From a virus, in the IMG/VR virus record IMGVR_UViG_3300023184_000569, positions 1 through 22,034 of that record: 22,034 nucleotides of DNA. One strand, 5' to 3'. Positions 2,164 to 21,342 of this stretch are shown here, in pieces (positions within the stretch are counted from its first letter, which is position 1; each line of letters begins with the position of its first letter). A model generated the notes under the pieces. It was not told the DNA's origin and made no database searches. It saw nothing but the letters and a program-made list of their open reading frames with translations. Position numbers and translations under genes: made by a program.

Positions 2164-3171
2164 TCATTCTAAAGAATTATTTGAATTTGGATTTATATCC
2201 TTAGCACTAGCAATGAGTAATGGTTGTAAGTTATTGAACCACCTAGTTCTATAAGGCTGTATTACACTACCAGCATCACCGACTAAAAATGATACTACTT
2301 GATTATCGGAATTAAAATTAAGGGATTTAGATAAAGTAATCTCACTTGTTTCTAAATTTATATCTGTAACTATTGTCCCATTAGGGATAACACCACCAAT
2401 TATTTGTTGACCGATAGATATATCAGATATAGATGATACTTTTTTATTACTACCTATACAATTTTTAGTGAAAAGTGGTCCAACTTTTATAACATTTGAT
2501 CCGGAGGTAACTACTGCCGCAGTTTCAACTTTACAATCTCTAGCACTTGTAAATGCTGGATAATATGTTTGAACCTCTAATGATAAAGTCAATTTTATCG
2601 TATTATCACTTTTTAAATTTTTCTCTCGTGTTATCTCAATTGCATCACTATCTGGCATTGTTAAAACAGCATCAATATTCATATAATTATGTTCAAAATA
2701 AATAAATCTATATAACCATAGTGTATTCATTATCTCTTGGGCACATTTAAAAACATCAATCTCACTTTTTAAAAGAATTACTAAATCATATGTTACAGTA
2801 ATAGGAATAGCTCTAACTTGTTTTAATAGTTTTTTAACTTCAACATTATCTTCAACAACTGCTCTAAGCCAAACATTAGGGTTTCTAAACTCATCACTTC
2901 TAATATTAAAATTATTAAGTGTTAAATGTCCTCTAGGTATTTGGTCAGTATTTAATTCAACATATCTATTTTCAGAGACTATATCATCTTGAAATGAATC
3001 TAAAAGAAATCTTTCATCTCCACTAAGTGAATAATAAATAGGAACTTGAACACTTATATCACCTGCTGTAAAACGATTTACCCAATTTAACCTACCCTCT
3101 AGAGTATCCAAAACACAAACGGTTAAATCTCGAAAGAAAACCTCATCAAAGTTAAACTTTTGTCCTATCAT
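2164..3171 (-). CDS. gp15: Tail sheath stabilizer/completion protein, T4 gp15-like, with an extra C-terminal domain
   Basis: This 335-residue protein matches the gp15 pattern along its first 210 residues: FFRDLTVCVLDTL near the N-terminus, VQVPIYYSLS (41-50), IPRGHLTLNNF (78-88), then IPITVTYDLVILLKSEIDVFKCAQEI (122-147), an NIDAVLTMPDSDAIEI stretch and LSLEVQTYYPAF. In T4, gp15 forms the hexameric cap that completes the tail and joins it to the neck. Residues about 213-303 are extra. They contain ISIGQQIIGGVIPNGTIVTDI followed by EITLS, the glycine-rich beta repeat (G..V.G..IP.GT.V..I....ITLS) found in many phage surface proteins. The gp15-like sequence seems to resume at PYRTRWFNNL. The gene diverges from the clamp-loader gene, with only 39 nt between start codons. 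Confidence 0.72.
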   Translation of the reverse strand: MIGQKFNFDEVFFRDLTVCVLDTLEGRLNWVNRFTAGDISVQVPIYYSLSGDERFLLDSFQDDIVSENRYVELNTDQIPRGHLTLNNFNIRSDEFRNPNVWLRAVVEDNVEVKKLLKQVRAIPITVTYDLVILLKSEIDVFKCAQEIMNTLWLYRFIYFEHNYMNIDAVLTMPDSDAIEITREKNLKSDNTIKLTLSLEVQTYYPAFTSARDCKVETAAVVTSGSNVIKVGPLFTKNCIGSNKKVSSISDISIGQQIIGGVIPNGTIVTDINLETSEITLSKSLNFNSDNQVVSFLVGDAGSVIQPYRTRWFNNLQPLLIASAKDINPNSNNSLE

Positions 3172-3210: not shown

Positions 3211-4182
3211 ATGTCGATAAAAAATTTACTACTTTGGGAAAAATATAGACCAAAAACAATAGATGATACTATTTTATTACCAAGGATCAAGTCACACTTT
3301 GAAAATGGTGTAAATAAAAATTATATTTTATATGGTCATTACGGAACAGGTAAAACGTCTTTAGCTAGAATCTTAATTGGTAAGTATTCAAAGGATAAAG
3401 CATTTTTAGAAATTAATAGCTCACTGTACACATCTATTGATGTTTTAAGAAGTGAGGTAGAAAAGTTTTGTAAAACTCAACCTATGTTAGAAACTGAAGA
3501 TCCAATAAAATATATATTTTTAGATGAGTTTGAAAGGGTTTCTCCACAATATCAGGATGCTCTAAAAGCATTTATTGAGACATACCACAGAAATGTCAGA
3601 TTTATTTTAACTACAAATCATATAAATAAAATATCAGATGGAATAAAATCTAGATTTACTTGCTTAGACTTTGACTGTCAAGATCCACAAGAAGAGAAAT
3701 ACTTAAAACAAGAAATTTATAAAAAGATAACATCAACTGTTGCACCATCAGAAGAATTAAATATATCAAAAGAGCATCTTGTTCAGCTAATAAATAAAAA
3801 ATTTCCAGACTTTAGAGGTATGTTTGTTGAAATACAAAACTTTAAAGATACTGGTGAGTTAAATATAAATTCCTCAAATACCTCAAATAAATTAAAAAAT
3901 GATTTATATGAATTACTCTATAATAAAAGTATTGACTATGAATTCATCTATCACTTTTTAATGGGTAATTTTGGACCCGATAAAATTGATTCTGTAATAA
4001 AACTATTAGGAAAAAGTTTTGTAGATTGGAGTATATTGGAGAAAAAAGAAAATATTGAAAAATTATTTGAATTAAATTATATAATATCAGAATATTCATC
4101 AAAATTAGAAACTAATACTGATCCTATAATTTTGGGAATGACAGTAATTGGTAAATTTAGAGATATACTAATTGGAAAGTAA
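3211..4182 (+). CDS. gp44: Sliding-clamp loader large subunit (AAA+ ATPase), T4 gp44-like
   Basis: The 323 residues compare with 319 in T4 gp44. It opens LLLWEKYRPKTIDDTIL, the clamp-loader box equivalent to EQKYRPSTIDECIL of T4. Walker A is GHYGTGKT at 42-49, Walker B is FLDEF with D105 and E106, sensor 1 is TTN at 134-136, and the SR arginine-finger motif is at 147-148 (SRC in T4, SRF here). The protein would load the ring clamp on DNA for replication and, through the clamp, activate late transcription with gp55. I chose the ATG at 3211 because homology begins there; an in-frame start at 3160 would add 17 unrelated residues and overlap the divergent gene. The small loader subunit (gp62) does not follow; gp25 does, after 19 nt. 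Confidence 0.93.
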   Translation: MSIKNLLLWEKYRPKTIDDTILLPRIKSHFENGVNKNYILYGHYGTGKTSLARILIGKYSKDKAFLEINSSLYTSIDVLRSEVEKFCKTQPMLETEDPIKYIFLDEFERVSPQYQDALKAFIETYHRNVRFILTTNHINKISDGIKSRFTCLDFDCQDPQEEKYLKQEIYKKITSTVAPSEELNISKEHLVQLINKKFPDFRGMFVEIQNFKDTGELNINSSNTSNKLKNDLYELLYNKSIDYEFIYHFLMGNFGPDKIDSVIKLLGKSFVDWSILEKKENIEKLFELNYIISEYSSKLETNTDPIILGMTVIGKFRDILIGK

Positions 4183-4201: not shown

Positions 4202-4579
4202 ATGGCAGAATTAGATTTTAAAGATTATTATATTGGTTATGTAGGTCATCCAAGATTTGTTGTTAACAAAATTGTTGAAGACGACCTAATTAGAGTAATT
4301 ATTCAAAAATATGAGATGATACTGTTCACAAACAAAGGTGATCTTTTAGGAGATCCAGATTTTGGTTGTGATTTACCAAGACTTTTATTCCAAACAAAAG
4401 TTTCAGCGCAAGGAGTTAAGAAAATTATTCTTCAACAAATCCAAAAATATATTACTGAATTATCGAATACTAATTTTGGATTACAAGCAACATTCTTTCA
4501 AGACCCTGAGAATTATCAAGACGTACTTCAAATTGATTTCCAACTAGCTGACTATGAAGTTTACGCACTAATATCCTAA
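4202..4579 (+). CDS. gp25: Baseplate wedge protein, GPW/gp25 family
   Basis: This 125-residue protein is the usual size of the family (T4 gp25 is 132). The family signature is clear: a helix (IIQKYEMILFTNKGDLLGDPDFGCDLPRLLFQ, 34-64), including FGCDL...LF, which matches PEFGCDLSDQLFE of T4. The beta-rich C-terminus (VLQIDFQLADYEVYALI) also fits. gp25 is the wedge core that docks the first sheath ring to the baseplate, so it works directly with the sheath protein encoded later in the window. It is probably co-transcribed with the clamp-loader gene. Only 3 nt separate its TAA from the stop of the convergent giant gene. An ORF inside it in another frame is a shadow. Confidence 0.92.
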   Translation: MAELDFKDYYIGYVGHPRFVVNKIVEDDLIRVIIQKYEMILFTNKGDLLGDPDFGCDLPRLLFQTKVSAQGVKKIILQQIQKYITELSNTNFGLQATFFQDPENYQDVLQIDFQLADYEVYALIS

Positions 4580-4582
4580 CTA

Positions 4583-7500
4583 TTACGATGGGTAATAAGA
4601 TTGTGTTATAACAGTCAATCCAGATACTGAGTTAGTACCGAGTTTTAGTCCTGTAACATCCTGTAACATTTGATCAGTCTCTTGTAGTAACCCAGCTCTA
4701 TATCTAAGAACATATGACTGTGTAGAAGTTAAACTATTATAATATGTTACAAATAATAGACGAACATCAAAGTTAGTACCTGTAACTCTATTTTGATAAT
4801 ACACATAACCGAAAGGACCTAAATTAGTATTGAATCCTTCAACAACTTTTTGGAAGTTATCTCCATAGATATAGTTATCAGAAGACTCTATGATATTGAT
4901 ACCATGTTGTGAGAATGTTGACCATTTAAAGTCTTGTGCTTGGTTACCATATGTTGGCCAATTTGTGAATGATTGTGTATAAGACCTTATATTAGATAAT
5001 CCAGCTGATGATCTGCTATAAATATAGTAATATTGAGGATTTAAATTACCAACAGTAGAGAATGTTAAACCATAGTTCTGACCGGTTGATAATCTAGCAT
5101 AAATATTATAAGAACCATTCGAAGAAATAGGAATTAATCCTTGGTTATTTGCAGTATTAACAGAATCTCTCCAGAATGCCTTACCACCAACTGCAACATC
5201 ACCTCTAATCTCAATAGAAACAGTACCACTAGGTGGTAAATTACCTGTCCAATTTAGCTCATTGCTCATAACATACGCAGAACCTATGTTTGAAACAACA
5301 TAAGGATTTTGAACATATGTGAAATCACCACTTAATTCAATTCTAAAATTATTAACAGTGAAGCTTGAATTGTTCTCTATAACATATGGATATCCATGTT
5401 TTATACGTGGATAGATTATATCGTTAGAACTATTTAAGTAAGGTCTATCAGTATAATTACCGTGTATATCCAAGAATCCTTTTGTAAATGGATAAGATGT
5501 CATTGTTAGATTAGGAACCTTATCAATATCAGCATAAACAATAGGAAGTGTAGCATCTCTATATTGTTTTGTAGTCAAGTTAGTAAATGCTTCAATTTCT
5601 TGTATATCCAATATACCCTTAATCTCAAAGTTCTTTCTATCTCTGTAAATCATACCATATCCATTATCCGATGTAACTTCAATAACTAAATATGGTGTTA
5701 TATTTGAATCAATTGTGAAGTTGAATGGATTTAAATTATCAATGAATCTATATTCTGATATTTTATCAACAGGAACTAAATCGATTTCTTTCCATTCAGT
5801 TATATCCAACCAATTAGAACCTACTCCCTCATCCAGGACTGGAGAAACTATCGAACTGGTAGCACCACCTTGTTCTGTCCAAACATATATTAACCTGTTG
5901 TACTTGACAACATCTCCAATTTTATAGGATGTTCCATAAAGCCATGTTTCAGCATTTTCAAATTTTCTAGGATTATTAGTTTTGTTATTAATAATAACTG
6001 ACTCATATAATTTATCATAATAAACAACTCTTTCTTCGACTTGATAGTTTCTAAAAGCATACCACTCTCTATAGATCTCATAAGTTCTAATATCTACTGT
6101 GTAGTAATCTGGAAGTAAACTTGATGTTGCTGATCCGGAGATATAAAAATCCAAAACACAGTTATATACAGTAGAACCACTATTAACAGGTAATAAATAA
6201 GCCTCATTCAAATCGAAAGTTATTGGTGTGAAGTTCTGTTTAATATTAAAAAACTGAGCATCTCGTGACTGATGAACCACAGTAGTACCACCAACAAAAT
6301 CAGCTCTACCAGTTATATCCAATATTTTGTGTGTAATTGGTATGATATTTTTCTGTAGCCAATATTTTAATCCTTGTAACTTCTTCTGAACCTCTTCAAG
6401 AGTATAATAAAGAACATTATTACCCTCTTTATCTGTAATTCTAAATGTCAAATTAAAAAGATTTGTATCTTCAAATTTAGAATTCGGAAAAGTATGTTTT
6501 ATAAAATCATTATCCTTCCAACCCTCAACAGTATTATCAAATATATCAGGTATTTCAACTTTAAATAACTTAGAATAATTCTCAGACTCAACATCTACAT
6601 TTCGATAATACTCATTTAATTCTAAATCATTATATCCAAAATAATTAATAGCATTTATTATAGACTTATAACTTCCAATATATGGATATATAAGATTCTT
6701 CATCATCAACATCTCTTTTCTCTTAGCATTAAGATAGTTCCAGTCTATGCCTTCTTCTTTTATGTCATATTCTTTGAATATATAAACATCATCAGATGAT
6801 ATTAATTTACCAACATTATTCAACTCAACGTGATATCTAATATCTTCTATTTCCGTCTGAGCCAATACATTAAATCTACCTACTTCTCTATTCCAAACTT
6901 TAAATCTACAAGATAAATATGTTGTTAAATATGTTTTTGGGAAATCGTTAATTATTGTAGATTCAGTTTCAAGTGAGTCAACATCTTTAAAGTAATCAAC
7001 AATAATCTCTCTACTAAAAACGCTTCTTATTTTAAGAAGATAACCATTATTATTTGATAAATATTGTTTTTTAGTATTTGTAACATCTTTAATAAAGATA
7101 GCTAGATGTTGTCCAACCTTTAGACCTCTAAAATTACCTAAAGAGTCAGTTGTAAAATAACTTGTAGAATTCTCTGGTAATGAAATTATACCATACCTAT
7201 CACCAGAAAATTCATCAAATATTGTTTCAAATGAAACAATATCATTATTATAAGAATTGGTTGTTATTGTGAAGTCCACATATTCTTTTTTATAAACCTG
7301 CAAGACGCTTCTAAGAGCACCTTCATCAGCAGAGTTGAATCCAATAAAAAGTTGTATAGGCTCTGGAACAACACTAACATCATTATTATCATCTATAAAC
7401 TCAAGATTATTCTCAACAACATCAAAAATAGTTTGTTGATAATCAGGAATAGATATTTTAGTTAAGTCTTTATTAGGTTTTCTATTTAAAATTGTTGTTT

Positions 7501-10500
7501 CTAATGGTTTCTCACCATTGTAAGCTAAAATTCCAGCAGTTGGTAACTGATCGCCTGTAAAGTCATACATGAAAAACTGAGGAACATTATCAGAAAACCA
7601 TTTCCAGTATAAACTAACAGTTGGTCCACCATTGAAATTCTCACGAGGTCTTCTTATATACTCACGAACATTTAACCAAAGATAATCTCTGTCAACATAA
7701 TCAGATGCCAAAGTTCCATAAAAATTATCATTAGATGACGTAGGACTTAGTGTATCTAGATTAAAATAACTTCCTAGATAAACTTGAACCTCAACAACTT
7801 GCTCACTATCTGGTTGTATTGCCCAAATACTTCTTCTATCAGGATTATAAATCAACTTAGTTAATATACCACCAGAAAATGGCTCATTATGTTTTTGTTG
7901 ACCTGTTGCGGAGTCTATAACTAAAATTTGATTATTAGCACCAATATAGATATCACCATCAAACTGATTTAGGGCTTGATTACCATAGTCAACGGGTGAT
8001 GATGTGTAGTTAATAGCATCAGTATCAACATAAAGTGATGTAAAAATAACATCGGTTGATGAGTTCATAGTACTATTCAAATTATTAAATAATAAACTAT
8101 TAAAATTACCACTTGATACAGAAGGAATATCAATAATAGTTCCATTATCGATTTTCTTTAGATTTGAGCCTTCAGCAAATAGATAAATAGATTCATTTTC
8201 TGGATCGTATGCAATGGAATTAGTAGCGACTAAAATACTATAAGTATAATCAATTGTTCTTGAACTACCATCTATCTTCAAAATAGCAACCGAGTCTGTA
8301 GTAACATACATATCTGATTCAAAGTCATTGAAGACCATGTTATAAGTATAATATGGTGTGGTATTAATTATTGTTGGACTTGTGGATCCAACCGGATAAA
8401 CATATATCGAAGTATCATTCTCAAACGACACATAGATATCACCATTACTATTATTCAATTGTATAGCATAAGCATCTGAAGCAAATGAATAAGATGCGAT
8501 AAGTAAGTTTATAAAAGGATCTACCTGATATAGAGTATTTTTAGATAAGGCATAAACATAGTTTGAAATACTATTATAACATAATCCTATACTTTGTGTT
8601 ATACCAAACAATAGATCAGTAGTTACTGTTCCATAAAAAGAATCAAAAACTCTTAGTTGATCACCAAGAACATATATCGAATTAACTGGCTCAACATAAG
8701 TTATATCAACCATGTTATTAACACCACCATACTGATAAGGTATATAAGTATTACTAAAGATATACTCAATACTAAAACTAGCCGTAAATGCAAGTTTATC
8801 ATACATACCTCTAAGAAGATCTGGAACCCAAGCTGGAGGACAACCAGTTTGACCGAAACCAATAGTAAAAGCTACAGTTGTGAACGCTGAGTTATTACAC
8901 AAAGAATCGGTAAGACCCCAGAATGGTCCCTCATAGCTTAGGTTTATAACATCAGGATTTAAATAAAGTGAATTAAATTCTATATTTTGTAAAGTATAAT
9001 AGGTCTTATTTATACCAACTACTTGACCAGTTGCAAATCCAACCTCTTCTAAAGATTCTCCACTAGCTGTTCCTAACAATATCTCATTAGAAGTTATAAG
9101 TGGACCGTGATTTCCACTATATTTTTTTATTATACGATAAGTGTCTATCCCAGGCAATGATGACTTACCAACATTAATTTGTAAATTAACTCTTTGTTTT
9201 TGTTTTTTAATATTAAACTTTAACGCACTAGCCGCATTTGAAACATAAATTCCAAAGTCGTTAATTGTTTCAGCCCAATTTTCAACCCAATTTCCAAGAG
9301 TAGTTGGAATATCGACAATACCACCACTATAAATAACAGTTTCCTCATATGACCTACCATTAATGATAATAGATAAGAATTTACCCATATCATAAAATGT
9401 AACGATTGAATGTTCAATATAAAAATCAGCAGTTGTTCCCACCTGAACAGTAAAATCAATAGGAACATTTGGAAAATCTGTACTTAATTTTATTGAATTG
9501 TAATAGACCGATGTATATCCGACCGTAATCAATGTTGGTAAAATACCAAGTGTATTTAATGTAAGAAAGTGTCTTGTTAACCAATTTCTTAAAGTCTTAT
9601 CAATAGTTCTTTGCATATCAACGAGACCAGATGAGTAAACCCATGCCACTCTCTCACTATAAACCATTTTATTTATCTTAATAAGTATTCCAAACTCATC
9701 AATATCTGTAAAGACTATACTATATTCCCAATTACTTGAGTAATCATAATTAAACTCTTTTACAAGTCTTTCATAAGTTTCAATACACTTTTCATAAACA
9801 TACTTAACACCACCTATACTATAAGAAGGTCCTACCTCATTATAATAATAATTGACAGTTGCGTAATCTGTTGGATATATTAGGTCAGCTTTTAATTGAC
9901 TATCATCATAATATAAATCTATATTAAAATACTTTAATTCGTCTTTAAACTTCTCAGCTGTAGTTGCTAGTGTTATTGCGGTTGATTGTGTATAAGACTG
10001 TGTAAAATAAATATGATCACTTGTTAAATATATTTCACCACCTACCAAATATTCTGAAACTATAGCTCCTGATGTAGAAGATGGTTCGATTGATAAATAT
10101 GTTGGTAAACTCCAATATAATAAAGAAGTTGTTGTTCCTGTAGGATAAATAGAATCGGTAGCACCAGACCAAGTATATGATTGTATGCACTGATATATCT
10201 CATTATTCCAAATAACTTGACTTCCAGTTGCATAATATGTTAGATTAACATTGCCTCTAAAAGAACTTATTGAAGAAACTTTAAAAAAGTCAAAATTCAA
10301 AGATGAATTAGGAACTTTAAATTCAGTACCCGGTTTCAAAATAGTTGGAACTGGATCTCCAAATGTTAATGACTTAGCAGTTGAATCAAATGTTATAGGT
10401 CCTCTATAAACTCTAGGTAAGTCTGTCTTAGTTATAACTTCTAATATAAGTGTAGAATCGGTAGGTAAGAATTGTAAATCATATTCAAAATGTAGAACAT

Positions 10501-11227
10501 CATAGATATTAGGATTCTTTATCGTAACAACATCAACATCATGATATCTACCAGTTTTTCTATAACTATCATTTTTTTGAGTATTGATTAGATTTAACTT
10601 TCTATATTGATAAAGTCTATCATAAAAAGTAGGCTCATTCCAAATAGATAAAGTATCTCTTAGTTGAGGAGTTATATAGTTATAAATACCTATTATATCA
10701 ACACCTTCGATTGTTACACCATCATAGCTTGAAGTTAATCCATATGATCCACTATAAGTATTCTCAAAAGCTTCGTTATTCATCAACGAAAGTATTAATA
10801 CAGCTCCTTTTTTAGAACCAACTACCGAATATACTCTATTCGGATCAGTGAATTCAAATATTGGACTATTGAATCTTAAAAATGTTCCTAATTTATATCT
10901 AGCTTCTATGTTTTTACCATATACCCACTTAGAAAAATAATTTTGCTCCTGGTTTACTGGTTCAATTTTAGTAATTGAATAAGTAGCAACACCTTGATAA
11001 AAGTGAAATCCAAACTCATTAAATAATTGAAATCTTCTTAAACTTAAATATGATTGATTCTCATACTCAAATGCAGGTATCTTCTCAAAAAGATAAAGAG
11101 CTTGTGTCTTAAATGTATCATTTGAGCTCTCAGGGAAAAGAATGTCACCCTCATATCTCTCGGATGTTTCATTATAATAAAAATTTAATGGATTTCCTTC
11201 TTTATCAAAGAATATTAAGTTCTGCAT
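4583..11227 (-). CDS. Giant tail/baseplate structural protein with probable beta-propeller and carbohydrate-binding-like segments
   Basis: This single 2214-residue frame covers 30% of the window. It is rich in Tyr, Ser, Thr and Asn with many short beta strands, as in phage tail and baseplate surface proteins. About residues 840-1152 contain seven repeats of the form [hydrophobic]-x-N/D-x-x-x-x-x-[IV]Y[VA]...[hydrophobic]-D (for example VNSIYVLGDQLRVFD, SNYVYALSKNTLYQVD, NGDIYVSFEND, ESDMYVTTDSVAILKID, ENESIYLFAEGSNLKKID, DGDIYIGANNQILVID, DRRSIWAIQPDS). This is a YVTN-type propeller. Segments near 337-379 (WNNEIYQC...W) and 1719-1817 (two repeats with V-x-Y-x-x-x-x-Y) resemble type-3 chitin-binding folds. 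A block near 1524-1542 (SIINAINYFGYNDLELNEYY) looks conserved in large phage baseplate proteins. It could be a gp7- or gp10-like wedge part or a fibre anchor; I cannot decide. It is next to gp25, which supports a baseplate location. Confidence 0.8.
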   Translation of the reverse strand: MQNLIFFDKEGNPLNFYYNETSERYEGDILFPESSNDTFKTQALYLFEKIPAFEYENQSYLSLRRFQLFNEFGFHFYQGVATYSITKIEPVNQEQNYFSKWVYGKNIEARYKLGTFLRFNSPIFEFTDPNRVYSVVGSKKGAVLILSLMNNEAFENTYSGSYGLTSSYDGVTIEGVDIIGIYNYITPQLRDTLSIWNEPTFYDRLYQYRKLNLINTQKNDSYRKTGRYHDVDVVTIKNPNIYDVLHFEYDLQFLPTDSTLILEVITKTDLPRVYRGPITFDSTAKSLTFGDPVPTILKPGTEFKVPNSSLNFDFFKVSSISSFRGNVNLTYYATGSQVIWNNEIYQCIQSYTWSGATDSIYPTGTTTSLLYWSLPTYLSIEPSSTSGAIVSEYLVGGEIYLTSDHIYFTQSYTQSTAITLATTAEKFKDELKYFNIDLYYDDSQLKADLIYPTDYATVNYYYNEVGPSYSIGGVKYVYEKCIETYERLVKEFNYDYSSNWEYSIVFTDIDEFGILIKINKMVYSERVAWVYSSGLVDMQRTIDKTLRNWLTRHFLTLNTLGILPTLITVGYTSVYYNSIKLSTDFPNVPIDFTVQVGTTADFYIEHSIVTFYDMGKFLSIIINGRSYEETVIYSGGIVDIPTTLGNWVENWAETINDFGIYVSNAASALKFNIKKQKQRVNLQINVGKSSLPGIDTYRIIKKYSGNHGPLITSNEILLGTASGESLEEVGFATGQVVGINKTYYTLQNIEFNSLYLNPDVINLSYEGPFWGLTDSLCNNSAFTTVAFTIGFGQTGCPPAWVPDLLRGMYDKLAFTASFSIEYIFSNTYIPYQYGGVNNMVDITYVEPVNSIYVLGDQLRVFDSFYGTVTTDLLFGITQSIGLCYNSISNYVYALSKNTLYQVDPFINLLIASYSFASDAYAIQLNNSNGDIYVSFENDTSIYVYPVGSTSPTIINTTPYYTYNMVFNDFESDMYVTTDSVAILKIDGSSRTIDYTYSILVATNSIAYDPENESIYLFAEGSNLKKIDNGTIIDIPSVSSGNFNSLLFNNLNSTMNSSTDVIFTSLYVDTDAINYTSSPVDYGNQALNQFDGDIYIGANNQILVIDSATGQQKHNEPFSGGILTKLIYNPDRRSIWAIQPDSEQVVEVQVYLGSYFNLDTLSPTSSNDNFYGTLASDYVDRDYLWLNVREYIRRPRENFNGGPTVSLYWKWFSDNVPQFFMYDFTGDQLPTAGILAYNGEKPLETTILNRKPNKDLTKISIPDYQQTIFDVVENNLEFIDDNNDVSVVPEPIQLFIGFNSADEGALRSVLQVYKKEYVDFTITTNSYNNDIVSFETIFDEFSGDRYGIISLPENSTSYFTTDSLGNFRGLKVGQHLAIFIKDVTNTKKQYLSNNNGYLLKIRSVFSREIIVDYFKDVDSLETESTIINDFPKTYLTTYLSCRFKVWNREVGRFNVLAQTEIEDIRYHVELNNVGKLISSDDVYIFKEYDIKEEGIDWNYLNAKRKEMLMMKNLIYPYIGSYKSIINAINYFGYNDLELNEYYRNVDVESENYSKLFKVEIPDIFDNTVEGWKDNDFIKHTFPNSKFEDTNLFNLTFRITDKEGNNVLYYTLEEVQKKLQGLKYWLQKNIIPITHKILDITGRADFVGGTTVVHQSRDAQFFNIKQNFTPITFDLNEAYLLPVNSGSTVYNCVLDFYISGSATSSLLPDYYTVDIRTYEIYREWYAFRNYQVEERVVYYDKLYESVIINNKTNNPRKFENAETWLYGTSYKIGDVVKYNRLIYVWTEQGGATSSIVSPVLDEGVGSNWLDITEWKEIDLVPVDKISEYRFIDNLNPFNFTIDSNITPYLVIEVTSDNGYGMIYRDRKNFEIKGILDIQEIEAFTNLTTKQYRDATLPIVYADIDKVPNLTMTSYPFTKGFLDIHGNYTDRPYLNSSNDIIYPRIKHGYPYVIENNSSFTVNNFRIELSGDFTYVQNPYVVSNIGSAYVMSNELNWTGNLPPSGTVSIEIRGDVAVGGKAFWRDSVNTANNQGLIPISSNGSYNIYARLSTGQNYGLTFSTVGNLNPQYYYIYSRSSAGLSNIRSYTQSFTNWPTYGNQAQDFKWSTFSQHGINIIESSDNYIYGDNFQKVVEGFNTNLGPFGYVYYQNRVTGTNFDVRLLFVTYYNSLTSTQSYVLRYRAGLLQETDQMLQDVTGLKLGTNSVSGLTVITQSYYPS

Positions 11228-14996: not shown

Positions 14997-15623
14997 TTAA
15001 TATCCTTCAACAAATGGAGGAGCGATAGTAAAGTTATTATCGATGTATTCATCAACCCAGTAGTCAGCTGTAAAGTTAGCTGTGATGTTTTGAAGTATAC
15101 CTTGTCCTTCATAAGTTAATGATGGACTACTTAATGATTTAAGTTGAACGTTTTGGAATGTAACTCTTCTTAGAACTAATCCTTTTTTATCGTGTTGATT
15201 AACAATCATTGTGCCAATCATATCAGCCTTATAATGTAAGTAACCATTTTGAGAATTCCAAGCCAAATCGTACCAAGCTTTTAAAGCTGCCCAACTTTCC
15301 ATAGAACCGTTATTATTAACATTTACATTAAATGTAACAGCCAAATCATCGATGTGAGTTTCAGCAGGACCCGCATTTAAGAAGGCTCTAGTTGTATATT
15401 TCCATCTTTGGTTAGAAGTTGCAATAGCTTTATTTGTAAGATTCAAGTCAACGCTTAGTGCTTGTTGTAATAACAACACTGGATCTCTACCTTGAGCTTG
15501 AAGTATTGTTGGTAGTACAAATGTAATCTCAAATAGATTCAAATATACTGGTTCTTGTGGCTGTGTTCCAGGTCCTCCGGGACTACCAGTCATTTGTAGT
15601 TGAGTAAAATGTGGAAGCGGCAT
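14997..15623 (-). CDS. gp19: Tail tube protein, T4 gp19-like
   Basis: The 208 residues are slightly longer than T4 gp19 (163), mainly through an N-terminal Pro/Gly-rich stretch (residues 11-25). The tube fold signature is clear: VYLNLFEITFVLP (26-38), LKAWYDLAWNSQNGYLHYKADMIGTMIVNQHDKKGLVLRRVTFQNV in 114-159, and FTADYWVDEYID near the C-terminus. Copies stack as hexameric rings inside the sheath and form the channel for DNA. The gene stands alone between a strong terminator and a leader with a palindrome, as expected for a very highly expressed product. It has no Shine-Dalgarno. It diverges from the gp26-like gene across 222 nt. Confidence 0.93.
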   Translation of the reverse strand: MPLPHFTQLQMTGSPGGPGTQPQEPVYLNLFEITFVLPTILQAQGRDPVLLLQQALSVDLNLTNKAIATSNQRWKYTTRAFLNAGPAETHIDDLAVTFNVNVNNNGSMESWAALKAWYDLAWNSQNGYLHYKADMIGTMIVNQHDKKGLVLRRVTFQNVQLKSLSSPSLTYEGQGILQNITANFTADYWVDEYIDNNFTIAPPFVEGY

Positions 15624-17130: not shown

Positions 17131-20100
17131 TTATGAGTTAATGAATCCACCTGCTGAAATTGCTCCAGTTCTAAGTATTGTGATGTTGTTCACAATGATA
17201 CCCATACCCTTGATTGGTTCAACATAAGTGTCAAGAACACCAATTTGATTATCAATGATTTCTGCCGTGTTGTTCTCTTCATCGATCTTATTGAAGTAAT
17301 TGTAAAGACCGTTTTGAGCCACATATTTCTCACAAATAACGTCAGCTTGTAACTTGATTTGTGCTCTAATTTCTGCTGTGTTGAATTTCCATTGGAAGTC
17401 TAACAACATTCTAGATAACTCTCTTTCAAGTTCAATCAATACCTCTCTTACGTGGATAAGTGAAAGTGCTGACTTGTAAAGTACTTGAGCTGTATTTTCA
17501 GTCTCAATTACGAATCCTCTATTTCTCTTGAAAGTCAATGGATTCATTTGAGCTTGATTTAAATACTCAAGATCAGAAGGAGTGAATATCTGCTCAAGGT
17601 CTTGTATACCAGTAATTCTACCGTTATTAACACCCGCAGCGATTGTCCAAGGAACAATACTTGTAGTAGTACTATTATGTTTTCTCATAAAAGTTAACCC
17701 TACATATGAAGATGGTGGTACATCGATTGGTCTACCAAAATCATCAATTGTTACATATGGTAAGAAATAACCAACAGAAGTTACACCAGTACCTTTACCA
17801 AATGAGTAAAGGAATTCAGGATTACTTTCTGGGTCACCACCCTTAGCAATATACTCAAGTTGTAGTGTTCCATTACCATCTTTAAATGTTGGGGAAACTG
17901 AATTCTTGAATGTTTTCAATGATGGCATATTCAAGATACCAAAAGCATCTAAACGGTCACCACATATATCAACCAATTGTTGTTTAGAATCTGGTGTTAA
18001 ACCAAGACCAAAAGAGTCAATTAAATATCTGAAGTCAAATGCTTCTTTATTTGTTAACGCTTTGAACAATGGTGTTCCTTTTGTAACAACATCAAGTATA
18101 GCTGATTGTTTTGCTTCAGTACCATCTGGTATAGATGCTTCTCTAATTCTAAATCCTTTAAGTGATATTGCCTTATATGTTGAAACATAATCTTCAATCT
18201 TAGTATATCTATTAGTTTGTTTATCTCCATTAAATGTTCTTAACTTAATAGATGAATCACAAGATAACTCTACATATTCGCTATTGACAGACCAAACTTT
18301 CTTAGTTTGTATTCTTGTAAGCTTTTTCGGCATCTGGTCTGCTTTTAATAAAGTAGGATCATAAGATGCTTCAAGATAATCTCCAACTTTAACTTCTGAG
18401 TATCTACTTCTCTTAACAAGAATCTTATTTGGAACTGCCACCCATCCTGATGGATATTCAACTTCAACAGTTTGTTTGAAATTACTCTTTGATGATTTAA
18501 CATAAAGTATACCATTAGTAGCAAGTGCACTATCAGTAGTAGGATTAACAGAGCTTAATACTGACTGAGTTCCTAAATTATAGTTTTCAAATGTAACAAC
18601 TAAATCTCCGTTATCTTTTTGATAAGGTGCTAAATAAATTGGACTACCATTAAATTGAGTATTGTAACCATATAATTTACTTATATTGATTGTTTCATCA
18701 ACAAGTGTTTCATAAACTTCATAAGCGTAGAAGCTATAAGAACCGGTGTCAATAGTGTTGATAACTCCACCACTATAAGTTCCTAATAAAGCCGCTCTGC
18801 CTGGGATACCTAAATCACCCGTAGCATCACCTGGTAACTGTAATCCATTTTCTACAGTCATACCCTCGTCATACTTTATCTCAAATGCTCCACTGTTATT
18901 AACACCACCGATTAAGAATTGATAACCTAAAACGTCAGAACTTCTATCTCCTTGATAGTCATTCAACTCTTGGAAGTATGCGTTATTTTCAGTTGCATAA
19001 TTTCCACTTTCATCGACTCTAAATATAACATAGTTATATCCAGATAATGAAGCTGTAACACTAGCACCAGGTACAAATTGTACTTGAACACCATCCCAAA
19101 TCTCATTTTGATAGAATACATCACCTGTTCCCACCAAACCTTGGTCATATTTTGTATAGAATTGTGAATATTTACCAACAACACCAAATGATGCAGTAGT
19201 ACCATCCAATATTGGTAAAGTATTTTTAGTTTCAAAACCAGCGTAGTCAATTAAGAATTCATCATCTAATTTGTAGAATACAAGTTCTCCGTCTTCAACA
19301 ACATCTTGAATATCAGCATATGTCAATCCAGTTCTAACGACAAACGACTTATTAACAGTAGCTCCAGTTTTAATATCACTGAATGTTACTTCTGATAAAC
19401 TCTTTTTAGTAGTTTCATAGTTAGCATTTCCACTACCACCAGGGCCTAATAACATAAGTCCTCTAGATGTAGTACTTGTATCAATATAAGATAAAATTGA
19501 ATTAAACATTTTAAATCTTCTATATTGTTCATATTCTTTAACATCTGGTGTAGAGTTGGTATCTAAGAATTCAACTTTGAAATCTCCCTCGTTCAATGTT
19601 AATTGAGGAGTTGAAGCTGTGCTGATTATATAATCACCACTATTTGAGAATTCCATTGTAACGTATGCACTTGAACCACCATTACTTGTAGAATTTATAG
19701 TCACAGGATTATCATTTTCACTACCTGGAACAAATAGACCATTATTTAACTCAGCATCACCCCAATGTAAAACTATATCAGTAGCAGCAACAGTTGCCTT
19801 TGAAGAAGTAGCGGTTGATACTTTAACAGTAATATTTCCACTTGATTCAAGTACAAAAGCCCAATTAAATGAATTAGTACCTGAAATACTTGGGAATGAA
19901 CTAGCTTTTAATTCAACAGAATATGTACCAGATAGAGGAACATAATTTCCACCAATAATAGCATAACCATTATCAGAAGTACTATCTACAGTATATGTTC
20001 TTGTCCAACTTGTAGTTCCAGTAGTAACAAAACTAGGACAGTGAAGATCGTTTACATATCCTTCTGCGAACCAATAGGTTCTATTAGGATTTGCGATATA

Positions 20101-21342
20101 TCCTAAATTTTCTCCCGATAAAACACCACCTAAAACAGTTCCTGTGTTATCATTATAAGAGTGCGGATACTCACCATCTGGACTGTTCTTTAATGCTGCT
20201 GCATTATAATCAGAAAATAAAGCAACTACGTTACCTGGTCTATCTAACACTCTATTAGGAAATGTCACCGTCTCAGTAATTTGTTCTTTATAAGATAAGA
20301 AGTTAATTGATAGTTCACCATCAATATTACCATCATTTGAATCTAAAGATTGATAATATGTCTCGTCTAAAGATGGAGGATTACTTAATAAGTCATCCGA
20401 AACTAAACCATTTCCAACTAAGTCAACAAGACCTTTTGGATAATCTGTTTCAAATAAGTCATTATTGAACGCACAAAATAGACCAGTTCTATCTGTTTCT
20501 CTGTTTATAACAGTTTCAACAAAGATATTTCTACCATTTAAGTCTCTAAAGTATGGAATCATAGAAAGTCCTTCATAATATCCTAATAGAGTTACATTTC
20601 TATCATTAGCGAAGTTTCTAATTTGAGATTTTTTAAGACCATCTGCTGAAAAATAGGCTGTCCATCTTGGATCAACTGACAATTCTTGGTAATTTGACCA
20701 ATCTCCACCAACTACTATAACATCAACTAAATAGTCAGATGCTAAATCTGTAGGATATAAATAAGGTGGAAGTTTTTCGATAGAACCATACCATTCAAGT
20801 AACGGTCTATCAAATCCAGAAACTGCAGATTTAACACAGAATACTGTTACAAATTTATCAGATAAGTTTGTAAAATTTAATACTCTACCCTCATATCCAG
20901 AGTTTGATTTTGTTGCATCAATGAATGCATCTGTATCTCTCTTCCAAAATCCAGTTGTGTCGAAATATTTTCTGTATGCTGCTGTTCTCTCAACGTCATT
21001 GTTATAAATTGGAGAAGCTGATAATGATTGATACTCAACAGTATCAAGAGCATCATCAGTCAACAATAGGTTAACTGCGTAGACAGGAGCTGCCTCTAAC
21101 ATTTTAGAAATGGTTCTGTGGAAGAATGATCCTTTTCTCTCTAATTGTCTATCAATAGAACCAAAGATTCTTTCAAGATCACCAACAGTCTTTAATAATA
21201 CTGCTGAGTTAACTGGACCTTTTTTAGAGAATCCAATAACCAAATTAGCAAAACCCTCCACTGTTGGACTTGTAATAATCGATTTGTCAATCTCTTCTAT
21301 AAAGATTCCTGGTCTTTTGTATTTACCGATTTGAATTGCCAT
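17131..21342 (-). CDS. gp18: Tail sheath protein, T4 gp18-like, greatly enlarged
   Basis: The N-terminus (YKRPGIFIEEID, 8-19, then VIGFSKKGPVNSAVLLKTVGDLERIFG) and the C-terminus identify a contractile sheath subunit. The C-terminal domain is complete: SYVGLTFMRKHN, PWTIAAGVNNGRITGIQDLEQIFTPSDLEYLNQAQMNPL, RGFVIETENTAQ, HVREVLIELERELSRMLLDFQ, then an amphipathic end. This region interlocks neighbouring subunits around the tail tube. The total of 1403 residues is about twice T4 gp18 (659). The excess lies in the middle and is beta-rich and Ser/Thr/Gly-rich; about 451-581 looks like an immunoglobulin-like or jelly-roll module (GTYSVELKASS, NFWAFVLES-type strands, SGDYIIS). Such domains sit on the outside of the contracted and extended sheath. 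The gene has no Shine-Dalgarno and is its own unit behind a TATATAAA element. Confidence 0.95.
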   Translation of the reverse strand: MAIQIGKYKRPGIFIEEIDKSIITSPTVEGFANLVIGFSKKGPVNSAVLLKTVGDLERIFGSIDRQLERKGSFFHRTISKMLEAAPVYAVNLLLTDDALDTVEYQSLSASPIYNNDVERTAAYRKYFDTTGFWKRDTDAFIDATKSNSGYEGRVLNFTNLSDKFVTVFCVKSAVSGFDRPLLEWYGSIEKLPPYLYPTDLASDYLVDVIVVGGDWSNYQELSVDPRWTAYFSADGLKKSQIRNFANDRNVTLLGYYEGLSMIPYFRDLNGRNIFVETVINRETDRTGLFCAFNNDLFETDYPKGLVDLVGNGLVSDDLLSNPPSLDETYYQSLDSNDGNIDGELSINFLSYKEQITETVTFPNRVLDRPGNVVALFSDYNAAALKNSPDGEYPHSYNDNTGTVLGGVLSGENLGYIANPNRTYWFAEGYVNDLHCPSFVTTGTTSWTRTYTVDSTSDNGYAIIGGNYVPLSGTYSVELKASSFPSISGTNSFNWAFVLESSGNITVKVSTATSSKATVAATDIVLHWGDAELNNGLFVPGSENDNPVTINSTSNGGSSAYVTMEFSNSGDYIISTASTPQLTLNEGDFKVEFLDTNSTPDVKEYEQYRRFKMFNSILSYIDTSTTSRGLMLLGPGGSGNANYETTKKSLSEVTFSDIKTGATVNKSFVVRTGLTYADIQDVVEDGELVFYKLDDEFLIDYAGFETKNTLPILDGTTASFGVVGKYSQFYTKYDQGLVGTGDVFYQNEIWDGVQVQFVPGASVTASLSGYNYVIFRVDESGNYATENNAYFQELNDYQGDRSSDVLGYQFLIGGVNNSGAFEIKYDEGMTVENGLQLPGDATGDLGIPGRAALLGTYSGGVINTIDTGSYSFYAYEVYETLVDETINISKLYGYNTQFNGSPIYLAPYQKDNGDLVVTFENYNLGTQSVLSSVNPTTDSALATNGILYVKSSKSNFKQTVEVEYPSGWVAVPNKILVKRSRYSEVKVGDYLEASYDPTLLKADQMPKKLTRIQTKKVWSVNSEYVELSCDSSIKLRTFNGDKQTNRYTKIEDYVSTYKAISLKGFRIREASIPDGTEAKQSAILDVVTKGTPLFKALTNKEAFDFRYLIDSFGLGLTPDSKQQLVDICGDRLDAFGILNMPSLKTFKNSVSPTFKDGNGTLQLEYIAKGGDPESNPEFLYSFGKGTGVTSVGYFLPYVTIDDFGRPIDVPPSSYVGLTFMRKHNSTTTSIVPWTIAAGVNNGRITGIQDLEQIFTPSDLEYLNQAQMNPLTFKRNRGFVIETENTAQVLYKSALSLIHVREVLIELERELSRMLLDFQWKFNTAEIRAQIKLQADVICEKYVAQNGLYNYFNKIDEENNTAEIIDNQIGVLDTYVEPIKGMGIIVNNITILRTGAISAGGFINS

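Follow-up and report, generated by a model that had tools for sequence, protein, structure and literature searches.

What would a beta-propeller be doing in the middle of a giant tail protein? The question is raised by a 22,034-nucleotide stretch of viral DNA (IMG/VR record IMGVR_UViG_3300023184_000569, positions 1 to 22,034), referred to here in its entirety as the window, in which an intact open reading frame (ORF) encodes a 2,214-amino-acid tail/baseplate structural protein. An earlier note, made from the sequence alone, had read a seven-bladed propeller into this protein. According to structure prediction, the domain is real and is well supported as a closed ring of eight blades, and the reading that we favor, at a rough probability of 0.55, is that a baseplate protein displays it at the surface as an optional, non-enzymatic platform for binding.

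The window sequence was aligned with 21 relatives, and residues 775 to 1212 were modeled with AlphaFold. Block values of the predicted local distance difference test (pLDDT) were about 87 to 96 across residues 827 to 1150, the last block (77) extending beyond the domain end, and both flanks were of low confidence when modeled in isolation. DSSP assigned 32 strands to the propeller model: seven complete four-stranded blades followed by three C-terminal strands, which, to judge from strand order, would pair with the N-terminal strand at residues 827 to 834 to close blade 8. Foldseek matches of the model reached E values down to 2e-14, and the closed propeller that had been proposed inside the ORF is thus borne out by the predicted structure. 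Each blade was also left out in turn and scored, against 20,000 shuffles, with a profile built from the seven remaining blades (p values below).

7778..8749, minus strand: eight-bladed beta-propeller, residues 827-1150 (AlphaFold, Foldseek, profile match to 1l0q)
8726..8749, minus strand: N-terminal strand predicted to close blade 8, residues 827-834 (DSSP and strand list, the latter also defining the blades below)
8603..8716, minus strand: blade 1, residues 838-875 (p=0.009)
8483..8602, minus strand: blade 2, residues 876-915 (p=5e-5)
8357..8482, minus strand: blade 3, residues 916-957 (window p=0.02, family median 0.004)
8225..8356, minus strand: blade 4, residues 958-1001 (p=1e-4)
8111..8224, minus strand: blade 5, residues 1002-1039 (p=2.5e-4; a BNR module lies in the following loop of two relatives, L106 and L109)
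7991..8110, minus strand: blade 6, residues 1040-1079, degenerate sequence (p=0.19, family median 0.07)
7865..7990, minus strand: blade 7, residues 1080-1121 (p=5e-5)
7778..7864, minus strand: blade 8, residues 1122-1150, comprising three C-terminal strands (p=0.12 in the window, 0.005 at the family median)

Blades 1, 2, 4, 5, and 7 of the window were recognized at p<0.01, blades 3 and 8 passed at the family median only, and blade 6 failed. Blade 6 reads TMNSST where the [IV]Y[VA] strand is expected, and this degeneracy is probably why seven blades were counted by eye. The domain does lie where the earlier note had placed it (positions 7772 to 8709), but its true extent is 7778 to 8749, and the closing strand at 8726 to 8749 had been missed. 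One could still suppose a seven-bladed ring with one extra non-blade hairpin pair, since blade 6 is degenerate, blade 8 is weak in the window sequence, and the nearest sequence relatives, YncE and 1l0q, are both seven-bladed. Against this stand the 32 strands predicted with high confidence and the fold matches: the eight-bladed Tako8 (TMt 0.80 to 0.81; root mean square deviation [rmsd], 3.2 to 3.7) and human ODA16 (TMt 0.83; rmsd, 3.1) fit much better than the seven-bladed YncE and Gbeta (TMt 0.63 to 0.68; rmsd, about 5 or more). We therefore regard the hairpin arrangement as extremely improbable and reject a count of seven. It had been argued that a ring needs seven copies to close, but the ring in the window is predicted to close with eight, and closed propellers exist with various numbers of blades, among them five, seven, and eight.

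By sequence, the propeller is of the YVTN/YncE type. The N/D...[IV]Y[VA]...D repeats of YVTN flavor that had been pointed out are present, and the propeller profile matched the archaeal S-layer YVTN protein 1l0q (E=7.9e-11) and Escherichia coli YncE (3vgz; E=0.001). NCBIfam YncE was matched by 11 of the 22 aligned members (best, 7.7e-7). Both known proteins share with the window propeller the four-strand blade, the Y in strand B, and the N/D-rich AB turn; they are, however, seven-bladed and cellular, whereas the window propeller is predicted to be eight-bladed and lies inside a phage tail protein. Because of its eight blades, we treat it as a YVTN-like relative and do not file it as a YncE member. 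Tako8, which is designed, and ODA16, a WD40 protein, are the best matches in overall shape and blade number but have no meaningful sequence relation to it (9 to 17% identity). In the annotated phage collection, the same propeller was found in just two Mahaphage records, and our literature search found no paper on this propeller domain in huge phages. A cellular origin was considered and rejected, the sole genome_contigs match being JAIOYD010000005.1, a contig binned as a Rickettsiaceae metagenome-assembled genome, which encodes the same tail protein and is probably a mis-binned phage contig.

The propeller sits between parts of the carrier that can be followed separately among relatives:

4583..11227, minus strand: 2,214-amino-acid tail/baseplate structural protein with propeller, an intact ORF with relatives on huge-phage contigs
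8918..11227, minus strand: N-terminal region before the propeller, residues 1-770
6038..7669, minus strand: conserved core, residues 1187-1730, which follows the propeller and is the slowest evolving of the three parts measured
4583..5515, minus strand: C-terminal module, residues 1905-2214 (310 residues), found only in the window's clade

Viral contigs were scanned with the whole protein, with the core, and with the propeller, which yielded 81 distinct proteins with both flanks. The propeller was present in 78 of these, and in 76 of the 78 it was in one piece of 320 to 353 residues with nearly the full profile matched; the blade number looks constant across carriers. The three proteins without it are L003 and L004, from more distant genomes of 636 and 735 kb, and L029. 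Searches of the whole 636-, 735-, and 462-kb records found no propeller copy anywhere, a weak match designated W03 being to a flank only. The L029 protein is open for 1,594 amino acids, and 13 residues replace the 340 that match residues 820 to 1160, the linker ends fitting the predicted propeller boundaries within about 10 residues. Its core is 79% identical to that of L012, and L029 falls in a clade of five proteins (support, 97/99), all the rest of which are propeller carriers. The genes flanking the L029 homologue are conserved. The natural reading is a clean propeller loss with flanks and neighboring genes intact, a loss rather than a primitive absence because L029 is nested among carriers; parsimony on the tree gives two changes in propeller presence and leaves the root state open. 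The comparison with relatives lacking the insert that the earlier note had suggested thus finds such relatives, with both flanks intact, and supports its view of a modular propeller in a baseplate-region protein. In one further relative, L052 (IMGVR_UViG_3300008262_000850), the homologous ORF is in three pieces, through either sequencing error or decay; it is open in the close relatives L039 and L040.

The propeller also diverges faster than the N-terminal part and the core: its median pairwise identity is 39%, against 49% and 60%, respectively. Within it, conservation is highest in the A and B strands and the AB turns and low in the BC, CD, and DA loops. The most conserved positions are the Y, N, D, and G residues of the repeat framework, and no catalytic-type cluster on one face is evident among the top conserved positions. 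Propeller and core identities correlate at 0.75, and inheritance of the propeller seems largely to follow that of the core; some distant pairs have propellers more alike than their cores predict, a hint of propeller exchange.

Additional modules occur in some relatives. In L106 (IMGVR_UViG_3300010885_067607, residues ~1064 to 1744) and L109 (IMGVR_UViG_3300042691_048368, residues ~1038 to 1691), an insert of 650 to 680 residues in the D5-A6 loop, itself a repeat module of propeller type, splits the propeller between blades 5 and 6 and matches PSII_BNR (Ycf48) at 4e-27 and 2e-32, respectively. These proteins are sisters in the tree, and the insertion was therefore probably one event. A speculative extension, which we consider rather unlikely, is that in Mahaphage-type huge phages the propeller serves as a mounting ring, some lineages plugging a second, Ycf48-like BNR domain into an inter-blade loop, so that one propeller-type domain nests in another and host recognition is changed or extended. 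At the C terminus of the L021 ORF (residues ~1880 to 2796) there are seven fibronectin type III (fn3) matches (E=1.2e-37). In the 385-kb contig behind L061, a second YVTN repeat domain, of the classic kind, lies within a 799-amino-acid putative fiber protein (L223:2187-4583); the neighboring 634-amino-acid protein (L223:4598 on) looks similar, like a paralogue without the YVTN domain.

The 2,214-amino-acid ORF is surrounded by the following genes, and the window is therefore a contractile-tail region:

2164-3171: protein weakly like T4 gp15
3211-4182: clamp-loader-like AAA protein
4202..4579, plus strand: gp25-like baseplate wedge gene adjoining the 2,214-amino-acid ORF (PF04965, E=6.5e-4, below the curated cutoff; phrog_261, E=1.5e-6)
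14997-15623: tail tube gene
17131-21342, minus strand: tail sheath, 1,403 amino acids

T4 gp18 has 659 amino acids, and the window sheath is about twice that length, with sheath-family matches mainly in its last 400 to 470 residues. The nearest annotated phage records to the carrier are LR756502 (642 kb) and LR745206 (634 kb), which share ~51% identity with it across 85% of its length. The best explanation is that the carrier belongs to a huge phage of the Mahaphage type and is a conserved structural part of its contractile-tail baseplate. Genomes as large as these two belong to the Mahaphage clade, for which Bacteroidetes have been predicted as hosts (PMC7162821); the host of the window's phage we infer. 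Pfam and PHROGs searches with the whole protein found nothing beyond a subthreshold match to the carbohydrate-binding module CBM_5_12 at residues 331 to 352 and one further stretch (E=0.0011). In L068, L083, and L086, ~90 extra residues break the N-terminal region at one position near residue 287.

By gene position, the carrier resembles a wedge protein. In the flavobacterial jumbo phages Tenacibaculum PTm1 and Chryseobacterium MA9V-1, a gp6-like wedge gene immediately precedes the gene for its homologue. Of the seven huge-phage records tested, six encode a gp6-like protein in a gene of its own, a long way from the propeller-protein gene. By eye, the KR...IGSYKSIINAINYFGYNDLELNEYY stretch of the core looks like P2 gpI, and hhalign aligned the same columns. 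Profile-profile comparison of the core gave no significant score with gpI (E=0.14) or gp7 (E=0.24) or with the controls gp6 (E=0.11), gp8 (E=0.19), and gpJ. Since the core scores no better with gpI than with the unrelated controls, membership of the carrier in the gp7/gpI family is not confirmed and is not claimed here. A model of the propeller-less core (L029 and 61 relatives) was weak, with a mean pLDDT of 61 and no significant PDB fold match.

For the function of the propeller, we favor binding. The autonomous closed propeller is a plug-in domain in a linker between two conserved halves of the carrier and would project from the baseplate periphery, where its variable loops might contact a host-surface glycan or protein or where the ring might hold a further adhesin. 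The results support its fold, its eight blades, the boundaries of the module, a natural loss that shows it to be dispensable, its faster divergence, and the adhesin-like modules that relatives carry in or beside it, and receptor binding is what we predict from its divergence and dispensability, the lack of a conserved active site, the adhesin-like modules, and known phage propellers that bind receptors. In phiKZ, gp131C (PDB 4GBF) forms a seven-bladed propeller at the baseplate periphery and is a proposed receptor binder (PMC4901313). Like the window protein, it places a propeller in a giant-myophage baseplate protein; its propeller, however, is C terminal and seven-bladed instead of internal and eight-bladed, and it was absent from the top 50 fold matches of the window propeller. 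The phi11 receptor-binding protein Gp45 and PRD1 P2 use a propeller as the adsorption domain (PMC4901313), but these have five blades and are dedicated receptor-binding proteins, unlike the window propeller, whose carrier seems to be a wedge-type protein. The propeller could instead be an enzyme that breaks down or alters a polymer of the host surface, as some phage propeller domains do. Propellers are frequent among enzyme folds, phage K1F endosialidase has one (PMC10607447), and the sequence has a weak neighbor in a PQQ-catabolism-associated propeller family; with no convincing enzyme-family match and with framework residues making up the top conserved positions, we consider this improbable.

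The alternative with more in its favor, possible though doubtful, is a structural spacer or assembly scaffold that makes the baseplate wider or stiffer, or serves as a dock for a neighboring tail protein, with no host contact. It would account for the near-constant propeller length and for inheritance that largely tracks the core. Such a part should not be missing from L029 and from the 636- and 735-kb genomes or diverge faster than either flank, and conservation of a patch on the surface would be expected from a structural interface, whereas mainly the repeat framework is conserved. Several points nevertheless weigh against binding as we propose it. A structural role is on record for phage propellers in the nozzles of T7 and SU10 (PMC10607447), in which, as in the window, the propeller belongs to a tail structural protein, although these are short-tailed phages and the propeller there is part of the nozzle. 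Both the binding role and the location are deduced, and fast divergence and loss would also fit an idle spacer. Recent loss is known from a single metagenomic contig, that of L029, where misassembly is possible, and the retention of the propeller by nearly all relatives means that it is rarely dispensed with. Finally, the core is without a confident family or fold match, given the hhalign values and the weak model described above.

Knowledge of the largest phages comes from metagenomes (PMC7162821), which leaves open the way in which their baseplates engage the host. Our results suggest that eight-bladed rings can be built from a YVTN-like sequence. Because one close relative has cleanly lost a propeller kept by nearly all others, the domain looks like an optional surface-binding attachment and not like a part needed for tail assembly. 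With a defined domain of clear boundaries, a natural domain-less form in L029, and natural nested forms in L106 and L109, its function is directly testable.
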